A stretch of DNA of 64,000 bases, from the NCBI RefSeq assembly GCF_025685425.1, contig NZ_JAGTAS010000058.1:868001-932000 (forward strand), given 5' to 3'. Below the pieces are notes generated by a model that searched no databases, was not told the DNA's origin, and saw only the letters and a program-made list of their open reading frames with translations. Shown one piece after another: positions 7,083-52,845 of this stretch (positions within the stretch are counted from its first letter, which is position 1; every line of letters begins with the position of its first letter). A program made the translations under genes and the position numbers. This stretch comes from Terriglobus albidus. GTDB taxonomy: Bacteria; Acidobacteriota; Terriglobia; Terriglobales; Acidobacteriaceae.

Positions 7083-7446
7083 CTGTTAAATGAGTTGACG
7101 ATACTAAAGATCGGCAGGTTTCGCTCGGTCTTTTAGTTTTGGGCCGCTTTTGGGGGAGATTTTTGGTGTTGGGGGTGGATTCTGCGTTTGGGGAGTTCAG
7201 CGTTTTGGGGAGATTTCTATGTTCGGGTAGAGAAGCAGATTTCTCCGCTACGCTGCGAAATGACAAAAAGGATCGTGGCAGGTGACAAGGTGGAGGTCAT
7301 CCGGGGAATTCTCGTTAGAAAGAAGCCTCCAAGAACAAAAGCGTCCTGGTCAATTCAGCGACAGGGACACCCTTACTGATCAAACGGCCCATAATTTTGT
7401 CATTTCGCAGCGCAGCAGAGAAATCTGCTTCTCTACCCAGACTTCA
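7083..7446. other. Gene-free stretch: G/T-rich leader tract and paired CATTTCG repeats
   Basis: No gene is supported here. From 7133 to 7222 the plus strand has runs of TTTTGGG, GGGGG, GGGG and GGGG with A/T spacers; on the minus strand this is a C/A-rich leader just upstream of the aminopeptidase. At 7225-7267 a CATTTCG repeat lies in reverse, and at 7396-7449 another copy lies forward, so the two copies are inverted around about 130 bases of unique sequence. Confidence 0.6.
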
Positions 7447-9326: not shown

Positions 9327-9442
9327 TAAAGCATTTTCACTGTTGCTGGTTATCCCGGAAGAGGAGCGCAGCGGCGTTTTCATTATGGAAAACGCCCATA
9401 GATGCAGAAGCCCGACTCTCCACCTACAGGGAAAATACTCTA
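9327..9442 (-). repeat. Stop-codon palindromic element, copy A (zwf-pgl gap)
   Basis: A 116-base element with terminal inverted repeats of the type TAGAGYATTTTCCCTGT and an inner hairpin GGCGTTTTC/GAAAACGCC. Its TAG end (9442-9440 on the minus strand) is the zwf stop codon; its other end lies 22 bases before the pgl start. Copies B, C and D are at 31997, 33773 and 40596. Relative to the stop codon, A and D lie in one orientation and B and C in the other. Confidence 0.88.
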
Positions 9443-10978
9443 GCAGCTCTTCCAGCAGCGGCCGTCGCGCGCCAGTAGCTCGTTCGAGGCTTCAGGACCC
9501 CAGCTTCCCGCCTCATAGTTCGGAAAATCCGAGACCGGAGTCGCAGCCCACTTCTCCAATAAGGGAGTAAACAATGCCCACGTTGCTTCCACACCGTCAC
9601 GGTGAGCAAACAGCGTTGCATCGCCCAGCATGGCGTCGAGCAGCAGACGCTCGTAACCGTTGGCCGTGGATTTGCCAAAAGCGTCGGCATACTTGAAGTT
9701 CATGGTCACCGGAGCGATGTTGGTCGTCGGTCCCGGAACCTTGGCGCCGAACCGCAGGCTGATACCCTCATCCGGCTGGATACGCATGGTCAGGATGTTC
9801 GGTGTGACCTGGGTACCGCAGTCGTTGGTCGTTCCCTTGAAAATATGCAGCGGCGGCTGTTTGAAGGTGATGGTCACCTCGGTCTCGCGGTTAGCCAGAC
9901 GCTTGCCGGCACGGATGTAGAACGGAACACCCGCCCAGCGCCAGTTCTCGATCTCGAGCTTCAGCGCGGCAAAGGTCTCGGTCTGCGAGTTCGGATCCAC
10001 ACGGTCTTCCTCACGATAGCCAATCACCTGCTTGCCATCGACCGTACCTGGGCCGTACTGCCCGCGAACCGTGTCCTCAAGCTTGAAAGGCTCAATCGCA
10101 CGCCATACCTTGAGCTTCTCGACACGGATCGTGGAGGCCTCAAATGAGTCAGGCGGCTCCATCGCCACGTAGCTCAGAACCTCCATCATGTGGTTCTGCA
10201 GAATGTCGCGCGATGCACCGGCCTTCTCATAGAACGGTCCACGGCCTTCAATGCCAATCGACTCCGCCGCGGTGATCTGCACATTGTCGATGTAGGTACG
10301 GTTCCACACCGGCTCGAAGATGCCATTGCCGAAGCGGAAGACGAGGATGTTCTGCACCGTCTCCTTACCGAGGTAGTGATCGATACGGAAGATCTGGTCT
10401 TCGTCCAGCACCTGGTTGACCTCATCGTTCAGCTCGCGTGCCGACTGCAGGTCATGACCGAACGGCTTTTCGATGATGACGCGTACCCAGACATCGCTCT
10501 CCGGCTTGGCCATCTTGTGCGCGCCCAAACGGTGAATGATGTCGGAGAAATACTCAGGCGCTACCGCCAGATAGAACAGGCGGTTGCCCTTGGTGCCGTA
10601 CTTCGTATCGAGATCGGAGAGAGCGGCGTTCAGGTTCTGGAACCCCTGATCGTCATCGAAGTTTGTGGTGAAGTAGTGGACGCGATCGACGAACTCCTTC
10701 AGCTTCGGATCGTTGTCATCCACACCTCCGCCCTTGAGGATGCCATCGCGCATGTCTTTCGCAAAAGTGGCCGACAGGTCGCGGCGGGCTACACCGACCA
10801 CCGCAAACTCCTGCGGCAGAAGACCTTCCTGTTCCAGGTGGAACAGCGCCGGCAGCAGCTTACGTTTGGTCAGGTCGCCCGACGCGCCAAAGATGACCAC
10901 GATGCATGGGTCAGGCTTGCGCTCGTTGCGCTGTTCATTCACGGTCGCGGGAGATACAGTTACTTCGGCAGTCGCCAT
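9440..10978 (-). CDS. zwf: Glucose-6-phosphate 1-dehydrogenase
   Basis: A 512-residue enzyme opening the oxidative pentose phosphate pathway. VVIFGASGDLTKRKLLPAL is the N-terminal dinucleotide-binding motif (about residues 27-45) and RIDHYLGKETVQN the active-site signature. Length and both motifs match the family. The cofactor is normally NADP+. The TAG stop is also the terminal triplet of palindromic element A, so the last residues (WKSC) may have been set by insertion of that element. The operon order is gnd, zwf, pgl, glk. Confidence 0.96.
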   Translation of the reverse strand: MATAEVTVSPATVNEQRNERKPDPCIVVIFGASGDLTKRKLLPALFHLEQEGLLPQEFAVVGVARRDLSATFAKDMRDGILKGGGVDDNDPKLKEFVDRVHYFTTNFDDDQGFQNLNAALSDLDTKYGTKGNRLFYLAVAPEYFSDIIHRLGAHKMAKPESDVWVRVIIEKPFGHDLQSARELNDEVNQVLDEDQIFRIDHYLGKETVQNILVFRFGNGIFEPVWNRTYIDNVQITAAESIGIEGRGPFYEKAGASRDILQNHMMEVLSYVAMEPPDSFEASTIRVEKLKVWRAIEPFKLEDTVRGQYGPGTVDGKQVIGYREEDRVDPNSQTETFAALKLEIENWRWAGVPFYIRAGKRLANRETEVTITFKQPPLHIFKGTTNDCGTQVTPNILTMRIQPDEGISLRFGAKVPGPTTNIAPVTMNFKYADAFGKSTANGYERLLLDAMLGDATLFAHRDGVEATWALFTPLLEKWAATPVSDFPNYEAGSWGPEASNELLARDGRCWKSC

Positions 10979-31765: not shown

Positions 31766-31999
31766 ATGAAAGACCTACAGCGCATGCAACAGTTGAAGTC
31801 GGAGATCGCTCAGGACGAAGAGCGATATCGTGAAGTCGAACGTCTTGAGGCCGAGCTGATGCAGAATATCGGCCTGAAGGGATTCAAGGCCGCATCCACC
31901 GAAGGACGCTATCGCGACGAAAAAGAAGCGCTAACCTCGGCAATCCGAGAGAAACGGGAGATGCTCGCCGGCATGGAAACGCAACCCGACCTGGACTAG
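31766..31999 (+). CDS. Small coiled-coil protein, function unknown
   Basis: A 77-residue, highly charged helical protein (MKDLQRMQQLKSEIAQDEER onward) with heptad-like Leu/Ile spacing in residues 1-35 and again at 50-70. No family was recognised. It follows the esterase gene by 49 bases and shares its direction. The TAG stop is the first triplet of palindromic element B, so the C-terminal QPDLD may have been set by that insertion. Confidence 0.6.
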   Translation: MKDLQRMQQLKSEIAQDEERYREVERLEAELMQNIGLKGFKAASTEGRYRDEKEALTSAIREKREMLAGMETQPDLD

Positions 32000-32109
32000 A
32001 GCATTTTCCCTGTTGCTGGGTATCCCGGAAGGGCGTGCAGCGGCGTTTCATTGCGGAAAACGCCCATAGATGTGGAAGCCCTACACTACACCTGCAGGGA
32101 AATGCTCCA
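31997..32109 (+). repeat. Stop-codon palindromic element, copy B
   Basis: TAGAGCATTTTCCCTGTTGC at the left, with the inverse end GCAGGGAAATGCTCCA, and the inner hairpin GGCGTTT/AAAACGCC. The left TAG is the stop of the coiled-coil gene; the right end meets the ribosome site AGGAG of the next gene. The element fills nearly the whole 121-base gap. Confidence 0.88.
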
Positions 32110-33772: not shown

Positions 33773-33888
33773 TAGAGTATTTTCCCTGTAGGTATAGTGT
33801 AGGGCTTCCGCATCTATGGGCGTTTTCCGTAATGAAAACGCCGCCGCACTCCTCTTTCGGGATACCCACCAACAGGGAAAATGCTCTA
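33773..33888 (-). repeat. Stop-codon palindromic element, copy C
   Basis: The minus strand begins TAGAGCATTTTCCCTGTTGG at 33888 and ends in GGGAAAATACTCTA at 33773, with the inner GGCGTTTTC-ATTACG-GAAAACGCC hairpin. The TAG at 33888-33886 is the stop of the DUF4097 gene. The far end lies 19 bases before the serine hydrolase start. Confidence 0.9.
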
Positions 33889-35610
33889 AAAATCGTTGTC
33901 GGTGTCTTTGTTCTTATCTTTATTCTTCTGCTTTGAGGTCGTCTTCCTACCCTCGTGCACAACGACACCGTTCTGATTAATGATGACACGGGTGCCGTTC
34001 GCGTCTCTTATATCCAACCCCGCCGGCGGAGCCGGAGGTGCAGGCGGCGCCATCGTGATCTTCGGAGGCGCCGGGAGAGTAGCCGGAATCGGCGGCAGTG
34101 TGTTGCGATTGATCGAGATGTCGCTTTCAGAGTTAAGGATGCGGATCTGCTTGCCGCCGCCATTGATGGAGCCTGAGAGCATATGGCGATCGCCGCTCGA
34201 GTTCCGGTCTAACGGAAGGTCAGTATCGGTCGATCCGTTTTTCGTCTCCGCGGAGATGGTATAACCGGCCTTCTCAGGCACCGTCAGTTTCACATCGCCA
34301 CTGCGATTGGTCACCGTAACATTGCCGACAGGCTGCGCAATACCGATCTCTACCGTGCCATTCTTATTCGTCACCGTCACATCTCCGGCAACGCGGTTCA
34401 TGACGATGTCACGGCTGCGTGTATTCAGAACTACGGGACCGAGCACATCCTCTACCGTCATATCGTGATCCGGGTCGATATCAACGTGACCGTCCAGGCG
34501 GACAAAGCGGAACTCGGTACGGCTGGTGCGTAGCTGAAATGGTCCCTGGACGCGCTCAATCCGCCCCGCGCCGAAGAAGTCTCCATTCATCTGCACCGGC
34601 CCATTTACATCGGAGATGCTGAGCTCGTCGATCTTGCCTTCGATATTGAGCGAACCCGTCAGAGAGTGTGCATTCAGCGACGAATCATTGTTGTTGATAT
34701 GCACGTTCGAGGTTCCGGTGATAGCTGAGATATCGACGTTCCCATGATTGGCCGTCAGATTCACCGGAGCCTTGAGATTGCGGACATGCAGCTCCCCATG
34801 ATTCGCAGTTGCCGTAACCATGGCAGTGGCTGGAACCGTAATTTCGAGGTCGAGCTTGCATCCCTTTTCTGCCGCGATATTTACCACCACGCTGTTGCCC
34901 ATGGCGGAAATGTTAGGATCGATCGCCTTTGCCTTACGCTCCGCCTCAGAGTCGCTGTCGGAGTAAACCTCTTTGTGACCGGTGATGTGCAGCTTGCCGT
35001 CGTCGCTGGTACCGGAAATCGTCAGGTCACCCCGCGGATTGTCCACGGTCAGCGTTCCACCCTCAGGAAAAGTCTGTTCAACCGGCGTCAGATCGCTCTC
35101 ATGCTTGTCGCCTGCAAACTCGTCCCAGTTATCACCGCTGACATGGAAGCTACGGGCAAACCACCCGTTGACGCGCCGGGCATCCGTATAGGCAAAGCTG
35201 ACGAACGCCAGCAGCATCACCAGGAAGACCACGCCGCCGACACTCCGCCGCACCGGCGGAGCATCGCCGGCCCGTAAATAGCGATCCACAGCCCACTCGG
35301 CCAGCATCAGCACGCCGATGGCAATCAGCACCAGCGGCCAGAAGTGTCCGTACCAGTTCCAGAACTGGTTCGCTGCCATGCGTCCCGTCTGGATCAGCAG
35401 AAAGACAATCCCGATGGCCACCAGGAGCAGAGGTCCGACGATGGAGCCTCGGCGATACTGCCGCATCTGCCAGCGCATCTGTTCACGCTGCAATCGGGCC
35501 TGGGCTCGCCATGCATCCCGCTGCGCCCTGGCCTGATCGCGGGCAATACGCTGCTGCTGACGCCACTGTTCACGTTGAAAACGAGGATCGATTGGAGGAA
35601 TCGTAGCCAT
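33886..35610 (-). CDS. Membrane protein with LiaF-like TM region and DUF4097 beta-helix domain
   Basis: A 574-residue protein. An Arg/Gln-rich helix (residues 10-53) leads to membrane segments (SIVGPLLLVAIGIVFLLIQ; FWPLVLIAIGVLMLAEWAV; SVGGVVFLVMLLAFVSFAY). From about 195 come repeated short strands (LTVDNPRGDLTISG, VNLTANHGNVDISA, VTVTNKNGTVEIGI), the DUF4097/putative adhesin beta-helix. It ends in a Pro-rich then Lys/Asp-rich tail. LiaF and DUF4097 proteins are linked to envelope stress. It is fourth in the sigma operon, 5 bases after the B-box gene. Confidence 0.85.
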   Translation of the reverse strand: MATIPPIDPRFQREQWRQQQRIARDQARAQRDAWRAQARLQREQMRWQMRQYRRGSIVGPLLLVAIGIVFLLIQTGRMAANQFWNWYGHFWPLVLIAIGVLMLAEWAVDRYLRAGDAPPVRRSVGGVVFLVMLLAFVSFAYTDARRVNGWFARSFHVSGDNWDEFAGDKHESDLTPVEQTFPEGGTLTVDNPRGDLTISGTSDDGKLHITGHKEVYSDSDSEAERKAKAIDPNISAMGNSVVVNIAAEKGCKLDLEITVPATAMVTATANHGELHVRNLKAPVNLTANHGNVDISAITGTSNVHINNNDSSLNAHSLTGSLNIEGKIDELSISDVNGPVQMNGDFFGAGRIERVQGPFQLRTSRTEFRFVRLDGHVDIDPDHDMTVEDVLGPVVLNTRSRDIVMNRVAGDVTVTNKNGTVEIGIAQPVGNVTVTNRSGDVKLTVPEKAGYTISAETKNGSTDTDLPLDRNSSGDRHMLSGSINGGGKQIRILNSESDISINRNTLPPIPATLPAPPKITMAPPAPPAPPAGLDIRDANGTRVIINQNGVVVHEGRKTTSKQKNKDKNKDTDNDF

Positions 35611-39737: not shown

Positions 39738-39755
39738 CATGGAGCTCATTTTGTT

Positions 39756-39955
39756 TTGTCATTTCGTAGCGAAGCGGAGAAATCTGCTTTTCTGCTCAGA
39801 CTTCAAGCTCGGGTAGACAGAAAAGCTGATCCCATCGGGATGACAAAAATTCGAGCCCCGCTCGAATAGTTCACCCCTGCGAAGCAAGTTCGCCGGGAAC
39901 CCCGATATCCCACCCATCGCGTCGCGATGGATGGGGCACCCAGATCCGTGATTAT
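39756..39955. repeat. CATTTCG repeat plus GGGTGGGG repeat cluster
   Basis: 39756-39807 is a CATTTCG-type repeat, 39825-39850 its GATCCCATCGGGATGACA companion, and 39885-39951 a CCCACCCATCGCG/CGCGATGGATGGGGCACCC hairpin. No gene is seen between 39738 and 40018. Confidence 0.65.
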
Positions 39956-40595: not shown

Positions 40596-40710
40596 TAGAC
40601 CATCTTCCCTGTTGCTGGGTATCCCGGAAGAGGAGTGTAGCGGCGTTTTCATTACGGAAAACGCCCATAGAAGCAGAGGCCCCACGCGACCCTACAGGGA
40701 AAATGGGCTA
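40596..40710 (-). repeat. Stop-codon palindromic element, copy D
   Basis: The minus strand starts TAGCCCATTTTCCCTGTAGG at 40710 and ends GGGAAGATGGTCTA at 40596, with the inner GGCGTTTTC/GAAAACGCC hairpin. The TAG at 40710-40708 is the tdk stop. The far end is 62 bases before the sodC start. This is the most diverged copy at its termini. Confidence 0.85.
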
Positions 40711-41325
40711 CCGGGCAACCGCCGGAAGCTCCATCTGCTCACTCTGGTTCTCATCGATAAAGGGCTGGAAGTGCTCACGGCAGCGAGCCTCATACATCCC
40801 GGCGGCTCCAACGACGACAAGCTCCTGGCTTTGCCCCAGCCGCTGGGTATGGATCGCCGGATTTCCGCACACCATGCATACCGCCGACAGCTTCGTCACC
40901 TCATCTGCAAGCGCCATCAGGTTCGGCACCGGACCAAAAGGCTCATTCGCAAAGGTCGTATCCAGACCGCCCAGAATCACCCGCTTGCCCAGATGCACCA
41001 GCTCCATCACCAAAGGAATCACATCCTCATCGAAGAACTGCACCTCATCGATGCCGATGACATCCACCTCGTGAATGTGATCGTTCTCGAAGAGCGTCGC
41101 CTTCAGACGCTCTGAGGTCGGCGTAACGACCGCGGCGTCATGCGTCTGCTCGGAGTGTGATGCAATCGCCGTACGGTGATATCGCAGATCAATATCAGGT
41201 TTGAAACAGGCGACGCGCTGTTTCGCAATCTTGGCGCGCTTCAAACGGCGGATCAGTTCCTCGCTCTTGCCGGAGAACATAGGGCCGGTGATCACCTCCA
41301 ACCGGCCAACGTGGTGCTGGGTCAT
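40708..41325 (-). CDS. tdk: Thymidine kinase (type II)
   Basis: A 205-residue kinase that phosphorylates thymidine in the salvage pathway. VITGPMFSGKSEELIRRLKR is the N-terminal Walker A region, VIGIDEVQFFDED the Walker B and lid, and VCGNPAIHTQR with the later EARCREHF matches the zinc-binding part (C-x-x-x... and C-x-x-H). The ATG at 41325 (MTQHHVGRLEVI) fits the family; a GTG at 41346 is the alternative. The TAG stop is the terminal triplet of element D. Confidence 0.94.
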   Translation of the reverse strand: MTQHHVGRLEVITGPMFSGKSEELIRRLKRAKIAKQRVACFKPDIDLRYHRTAIASHSEQTHDAAVVTPTSERLKATLFENDHIHEVDVIGIDEVQFFDEDVIPLVMELVHLGKRVILGGLDTTFANEPFGPVPNLMALADEVTKLSAVCMVCGNPAIHTQRLGQSQELVVVGAAGMYEARCREHFQPFIDENQSEQMELPAVAR

Positions 41326-41392
41326 TCCGGAATGGTACTGCTGCACGGGGTGTGCAAAACAAGGCTCGATTTAGCATCAAGCTTTGCCTTTT

Positions 41393-52440: not shown

Positions 52441-52845
52441 TGTTGAGCGCTGAAGGCGCGACCTATACCAGCCATACGAGGTCTCACGAACCGTTTCGTT
52501 TGCGACGATTGGGGATTATCGGTCGGGCCTTCAGCCCCAGCCCTTTCAAGGTCTTTGGGGCCAAGATATGTTTCTGTTCGCCTTTCATTTGTCTTCGTCG
52601 CTATTAAAAGATCGAGAGATGCATTTCGATGTATCACTCAGCATTAACTCAAAATGATTTCCCTTGCCAAACCTTCAACTAAACGCGCAAAAGAACCAAG
52701 TCAGTAAATCTGGCGGCGCATTTTTCTCATTTTGCAAAGACCTTGAAAGGGCTGGCCTTCAGCCCTCTTACCGTTTCCTATCTCCGTACCTGGGGCGTTG
52801 CCCCAGGCTGGTATAGAACGCGCCTTCAGCGCTTGATTCTTGATT
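52441..52845. repeat. About 110-base inverted repeat pair of the CTTCAGCCC type, no gene
   Basis: Left arm (52441-52562): GAGCGCTGAAGGCGCG, CTATACCAGCC, then GGGCCTTCAGCCCCAGCCC and TTTCAAGGTCTTTG. Right arm (52732-52845): the same blocks inverted, CAAAGACCTTGAAAGGGCTG, GGCCTTCAGCCC, GGCTGGTATAG and CGCGCCTTCAGCGCTT. The 170 bases between hold no gene. The whole 52394-53039 gap, 646 bases, is otherwise unassigned; GGAGGGCTGAAGCCC at 53006 is another fragment of the family. Confidence 0.75.

Follow-up and report, generated by a model that had tools for sequence, protein, structure and literature searches.

A TA-inserting palindromic element, very probably an IS630-type MITE, that shares stop codons with genes of Terriglobus albidus

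The repeat unit of pneumococcus (RUP) is among the described elements closest to the one studied here. As set out in the sections of PMC2229807 on which we draw, it is 107 bp long, is present in about 108 copies and is attributed to IS630-Spn1. The same sections describe the Correia elements (NEMIS) of Neisseria as repeats of about 107-155 bp with terminal inverted repeats (TIR), TA termini, target duplication and long stem-loops. ISY100 has been found to target TA in vitro and to duplicate it, 34 of 39 products being normal (sections of PMC2170065), and the BOX repeat of pneumococcus provides the stop codon in 36 of 58 overlapping genes without clear truncation (sections of PMC3049150).

The palindrome examined here was noticed in the window, by which we mean the whole stretch of 64,000 nucleotides that was analysed. 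It is very probably a non-autonomous MITE of the IS630 (Tc1/mariner-like) kind, which inserts at TA and is harmless at TAA and TAG stops. Like RUP as presented in PMC2229807, it has TA at both ends, inserts at TA and has ends resembling those of an IS630 element, but it differs from RUP in sequence and phylum, and the IS of RUP resides in the same species, whereas no IS with matching ends was found here. The sections of PMC2229807 that deal with RUP make no mention of a coincidence with stop codons. The likeness to Correia elements is one of anatomy; in the account available, fusion with reading frames is common among the 107-bp Correia elements, whereas only one of 107 full-length copies of the MITE lies wholly inside a called gene. 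IS630 and ISY100 likewise insert at TA and duplicate it (PMC2170065); they are autonomous, whereas the MITE has no transposase gene. BOX is similar in supplying stop codons but has a different structure and is linked to ISSpn2. REP/BIME sequences with TnpA-REP are likewise high-copy extragenic palindromes, and their ends differ from those of the MITE.

The element in the window and its distribution

The four copies reported in the earlier note were recovered in the window with the same extent and ends, and each of them shares one terminal TAG with the stop codon of a called gene (4/4), two copies lying in one orientation relative to that stop and two in the other:

9327..9442, + strand: MITE copy 1, right-end TA inside the stop of zwf (-)
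9440..9442, - strand: TAG stop common to zwf and the end of copy 1; gene 9440-10978 (-), glucose-6-P dehydrogenase
31997..32109, + strand: MITE copy 2, left-end TA inside the stop of a 77-aa ORF (+)
31997..31999, + strand: TAG stop common to the 77-aa ORF and the end of copy 2; gene 31766-31999 (+)
33773..33888, - strand: MITE copy 3, right-end TA inside the stop of a DUF4097 gene (-)
33886..33888, - strand: TAG stop common to the DUF4097 gene and the end of copy 3; gene 33886-35610 (-)
40596..40710, + strand: MITE copy 4, right-end TA inside the stop of tdk (-)
40708..40710, - strand: TAG stop common to tdk and the end of copy 4; gene 40708-41346 (-), thymidine kinase

That the element fills the gap to the next gene, as had also been stated, is true only loosely, as 11-61 bases are left before the next called gene. 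The 77-aa ORF (31766-31999, +) had no Pfam match, and the right terminus of copy 2 reads CA in place of TA. End motifs with up to 3 mismatches occur seven times in the window against 0.54 expected, a number reached in none of 100 shuffles. The element is non-coding, mostly 112-116 bp long, with inverted ends of 17 bp. None of the four copies reached the Rfam gathering score; the sole Rfam match in the window is an Acido-Lenti-1 RNA (RF01687) at 52789-52833 (+), with 39.7 bits.

The 16-base end motif, allowing up to 2 mismatches, is found 313 times forward and 312 times reverse in the 6.1 Mb of the own genome (G000), while a reversed-motif control gave 0 and 1 matches. A profile search of 1.2 Mb of the window's contig recovered 90 elements, 74 of them full-length. 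The distribution among relatives is uneven: of 19 genomes surveyed in the genus, four (G000, G002, G012 and G015) contain hundreds of motifs and the other 15 contain 0-3. Within 300 genomes sampled from the family, the 116-base query gave matches of 25-116 bases in 26, and the 19-base form of the end (up to 1 mismatch) was present in 31, with at most 17 ends per genome outside the four rich genomes. Matches to the 22-base form in named genomes came from at least 60 stretches, all of them Acidobacteria among the matches listed, which include Granulicella mallensis X5P3 and the MAGs Bin6.3, SH_60_12 and Umea3_bin-3611. The plasmid collection searched contained no match. Subscription papers apart, the titles and abstract beginnings listed in the literature search included no description of this element, of MITEs in Acidobacteria or of stop-codon insertion, and the main text of an acidobacterial genome survey (PMC5900883) contains no word starting with IS630 or MITE.

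Some copies adjoin one another. Head-to-tail arrays with a spacing of 114-119 bp are present at G000:C39:265262-265721 (L324) and G000:C38:5394-5620 (L325), and contig C28 holds four further adjacent pairs at 114-115 bp. Two abutting element ends make CTAG, itself a preferred kind of target.

Insertion at TA dinucleotides

Of 180 element ends, 141 have no more than 4 mismatches. Among these, the terminal T is retained in 87% and the terminal A in 89%, and a C or T stands just outside in 77%. Tenzen and Ohtsubo are said to have reported in 1991 that IS630 prefers TA within 5'-CTAG-3'.

For each of the 107 full-length copies of G000 and G002 the homologous site was sought in the other of these two species; the homologue was empty for 24 and occupied for 19, while 62 had no orthologous flank pair and two fell into other classes. 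At 17 of the 24 empty sites there is one clean TA where the filled site has two (one of these, 377534, has a poor alignment, 27/42), and three more (570001, 841218 and 856431) read a single TA by eye, the alignment being shifted. Four empty sites do not show it (715721, 947548, 358232 and 371897). From the lone TA of most empty sites it follows that insertion takes place at TA, which is duplicated. The earlier suggestion that the element replaces sequence just after the stop is not supported by the same comparison, as the flanks join at a single TA in 17/24. The base following the TA at these 17 sites is A or G in 15, and the preceding base is A in seven, C in seven, T in three and never G, so the preference for a pyrimidine before TA is weaker here than at the element ends.

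In the window, the sites of copies 1 and 4 are empty in both G002 and G017, the stop in G002 being TAA at the former and an already present TAG at the latter. Copy 3 is occupied in G012 and G015 and empty in G017 and in G002 (stop TAA); because it is filled in the first two genomes while empty in G002, its arrival probably postdates the divergence from G002. For copy 2 there is neither a clean empty homologue nor any counterpart in G002; the G015 homologue carries TAG at the same codon but lacks a full element, and about 45 bp downstream there is a shortened element remnant.

These observations fit a mechanism in which the MITE, with a core of about 110 bp, 5'-GAGCATTTTCCCTGT...ACAGGGAAAATGCTC-3', would be excised by a DDE transposase acting in trans and pasted into a TA, more often one with C or T before it and A or G after it; the TA would be duplicated, as is seen at the empty sites. 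Both ends normally start with G after the duplicated TA, so that a TAA or TAG stop would read TAG after insertion in either orientation. Because TAA and TAG contain TA and the first base of the element is G, the stop would still work and the protein would be unchanged. Insertions inside genes would be purged by selection and those near starts would probably be disfavoured, so that survivors would lie in non-coding DNA, where TA-containing stops make up a large share of the tolerated targets. Use of these stops is 2-3 times above the prediction from target preference alone. A known mechanism would account for the striking stop-codon pattern, and the element would illustrate neatly that a TA target, together with an element's first base, can make stop codons harmless landing sites.

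Frequency of stop codons among insertion sites

We counted copies whose end TA lies in a called stop, the genes being those of a hexamer-based caller written for this analysis and not of a published annotation. On the window's contig in G000, of which 1.2 Mb was covered, this was the case for 27 of the 74 full-length copies (the window's four included); the other counts are 17/33 in 0.8 Mb of G002, 10/25 loci from other G000 contigs, 32/79 named loci and 1/6 in four stretches of G322. Pooled, 87/217 copies (40%) touch a stop, or 83/213 without the window's four. The full-length sets omit 16/90 G000 loci and 5/38 G002 loci with partial or diverged ends, and loci L001-L030 and L217-L276 were chosen by exact end matches, which biases them towards intact copies.

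The earlier note had pointed out that TAG stops are common, about 4 in 10, which is borne out by 344 of 937 called stops, and had argued that this leaves the coincidence of four in four unexplained. The coincidence is true in the window, where arithmetic puts the chance of four of four at a rate of about 0.4 at about 0.026, but the sample is small, and without these four 23/70 full-length copies touch a stop in the 1.2 Mb. The perfect record of the window reflects local chance added to a genuine excess. The count that the note had named as capable of refuting it, made here on samples, places 130/217 copies away from stops, so the pattern does not hold for most copies. On the whole, the earlier observation is confirmed and its interpretation is partly supported.

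If only non-coding TA sites are considered, stops are expected to supply 10-11% of sites, and 20-21% if Y-TA-R sites are considered. With sites weighted by the flanking base at non-stop copies, the expectation is 16.8% in G000 (27/74 seen; 2.2-fold; p 3.8e-5) and 15.0% in G002 (17/33 seen; 3.4-fold; p 1e-6). The density of elements per 1000 target-like sites is 64 at stops (44/684), 28 within 60 bp past a stop (29/1033) and 10 elsewhere (34/3270), and stop sites are used 2.3-fold more commonly than target-like sites 1-60 bp downstream (p 0.0006). The stop excess beyond target preference is real. Called genes contain 71-74% of the weighted targets, against the single full-length copy of 107 found wholly inside one, which speaks for selection against insertions within genes.

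Selection probably supplies the remaining excess at stops, the simplest candidate source being the loss of copies that had landed in promoters, ribosome-binding sites or terminators. The excess over sites 1-60 bp downstream is not obviously accounted for by such 'safe site' selection, and this comparison is one argument for a different explanation, in which insertion is directed towards stop codons by the transposase, or by a host factor active at the termination of translation or at the ends of transcripts. The stop share above weighted expectation in both species and the similar share in loci from other contigs and in named loci point the same way. Active steering nevertheless seems quite improbable to us, as about 60% of copies are away from stops, the target motif itself enriches for stops, the survivors have been shaped by selection and the expectation leaves out the wider sequence context of stops. 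Unlikely, too, is the broader proposal that stop-restoring ends (TA followed by GAG...) combined with insertion steered to translation stops have let the element multiply to hundreds of copies in a genome dense with genes, at next to no cost.

Alternatively, copies at stops could be domesticated 3' elements, kept since their hairpin ends or stabilises the transcript of the preceding gene. The single-strand fold of copy 3, the sole copy folded, is far better than those of shuffles (RNA z -4.45, DNA z -4.94), and the density of elements per site is higher in the 60 bp following stops than elsewhere. Matched variants at the two ends also exceed expectation at TIR position 12 (12 vs 3.06 expected) and position 13 (4 vs 0.50) in the 84/107 copies with ungapped ends. 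These paired variants also fit transposase recognition or subfamilies, however, and at most TIR positions changes occur on one end only; they hint at subfamilies or paired recognition. By reading of the sequence, no T-run follows either arm of the stem. Moreover, both orientations occur at stops (18 same, 26 opposite), copies are also present between divergent genes, and presence varies between close species. We therefore find a role as a retained 3' element distinctly doubtful.

Under the preferred reading, a MITE that is harmless at TAA and TAG, the stops should be older than the insertions. Twelve of the 24 copies with empty homologous sites touch a stop, and in 10/12 the homologous called gene stops at exactly that codon, which is TAA in seven and TAG in three. 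The codon at 656788 reads TAA. For five of these ten the computed offset is -1, which is a matter of base-counting for other-strand hits and was resolved by hand. Counted by aligned codons, the pre-existing stops number 11/12 (one by eye), and by called gene ends 10/12. Because the homologous gene already ends at that codon in 10/12, the element enters existing stops and truncation is not the rule. It is accordingly very unlikely that insertions cut genes short, with the element's TAG as the new stop, even though the TAG at each element end could close a frame meeting it and though in two cases (277395 and 386388) the nearest stop called in the homologue lies at a distance of 118 and 115 bp, the aligned codon being TAG in both. 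The proposal in the earlier note of insertion at TAG stops with the protein left intact came close, given the existing stops in these 10/12 testable cases; the target is TA, and TAA stops are included. A few copies have mutated ends, such as 566677, which now reads TAA.

With four of 19 genomes rich in the element, and with empty and filled homologues, this is a natural system for the study of selection on the 3' ends of bacterial genes, and the same genomes are suited to asking whether stops are used beyond what the motif predicts.

IS630 relatives and a possible source of the element

Among IS630-type loci in related genomes, 16/32 are delimited by inverted ends at a length of 996-1058 bp. 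TAGAG is present at both ends in 13/16 of the delimited loci, and all four of the locus proteins tested are DDE_3 (4/4). Both ends of L158 and of L141, which comes from G014 in the same genus, carry TAGAGCATTTTC. In L311, a 1017-bp locus of G304 from the same family, the right end matches the right end of the MITE at 23/28 bases, with AGGTGTA in common and 13/16 matches inside the outer 12 bases; one end of L152 matches the MITE left end at 22/28, with 12/16 inside the outer 12. Both matches are at the floor of 2000 shuffles, the p value applying to a single end while 30 ends were compared. By reading, the left end of L311 and L312, apparently a second copy, have TTGCTG in common with the MITE left end, and the L312 end fits the left and right ends of the MITE equally (20/28 each). 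The MITE ends are thus like IS630 ends beyond the common outer 12 bases, best in L311, L152, L148 and L141, none of which is identical, the closest differing at 5-8 of 28 bases.

An IS630 source of the MITE would bear TAGAGCATTTTCCCTGT ends. G000, G002 and G012 yielded neither a transposase with matching ends nor one of this IS630 group, and we can therefore only infer the source element. A search near lone end motifs (tblastn of 6 transposases against 20 stretches of 10 relatives and 37 other loci) gave no match to an autonomous copy, and in G004 there is a partial match to the transposase of this IS630 group. The element may be stranded, or its partner may have been lost, have diverged or be unassembled, so that an IS630-type MITE does not strictly need its mobilising IS in the same genome. 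The IS630 of the own genome (L143-L146) was ruled out as the MITE source, its TATTGATTCC ends being unrelated.

The ends, the TA duplication and these relatives all point to IS630 and not to the TnpA-REP origin that the earlier note had raised. A REP/BIME-like palindrome moved by a TnpA-REP (Y1) transposase is suggested by the repeated, palindromic and mostly intergenic nature of the element and by 10 Y1_Tnp matches in the genome, but is extremely improbable, since none of the 10 Y1 loci has its gene between two ends (up to 4 mismatches), the single end motif seen in 4/10 (L035 with 1 mismatch, L039 with 3, L034 and L038 with 4) compares with 2-3 copies expected in their 33 kb at 90 elements per 1.2 Mb, and TA duplication with DDE-linked ends misfits single-strand REP transposition. 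To our knowledge, TA duplication is not expected of that process.

Several further repeats were observed. The IS630 relative with TATTGATTCC ends is represented by L143 (G000:C35) and by L144 and L145 in G002; the two G002 copies are 99.8% identical over 1168 bases, and because they are nearly identical this element may be active in G002. An IS630 in G015 has the ends TAGAGCAAAGTT and sits in CTAG. A second repeat, likewise dispersed and about 55 bp long, has the sequence TTTGTCATTTCGTAGCGACCGGAGGGAGCGGAGAAATCTGCTTCTCTACC and was found at G000:C28:818556-818612, with about 30 further matches in 1.2 Mb and weak copies in the window at 152-192, 7226-7267, 7396-7437 and 39749-39793; it has no evident likeness to the MITE. 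Other short elements with ends similar to those of the MITE are L181-L187 in G056 (TAGAGCATTTTCACCGT, about 222 bp) and L337-L339 in G471 (TAGATCATTTTCCCTGT, about 117 and 230 bp), and there seem to be several MITE families with this type of end in the class.
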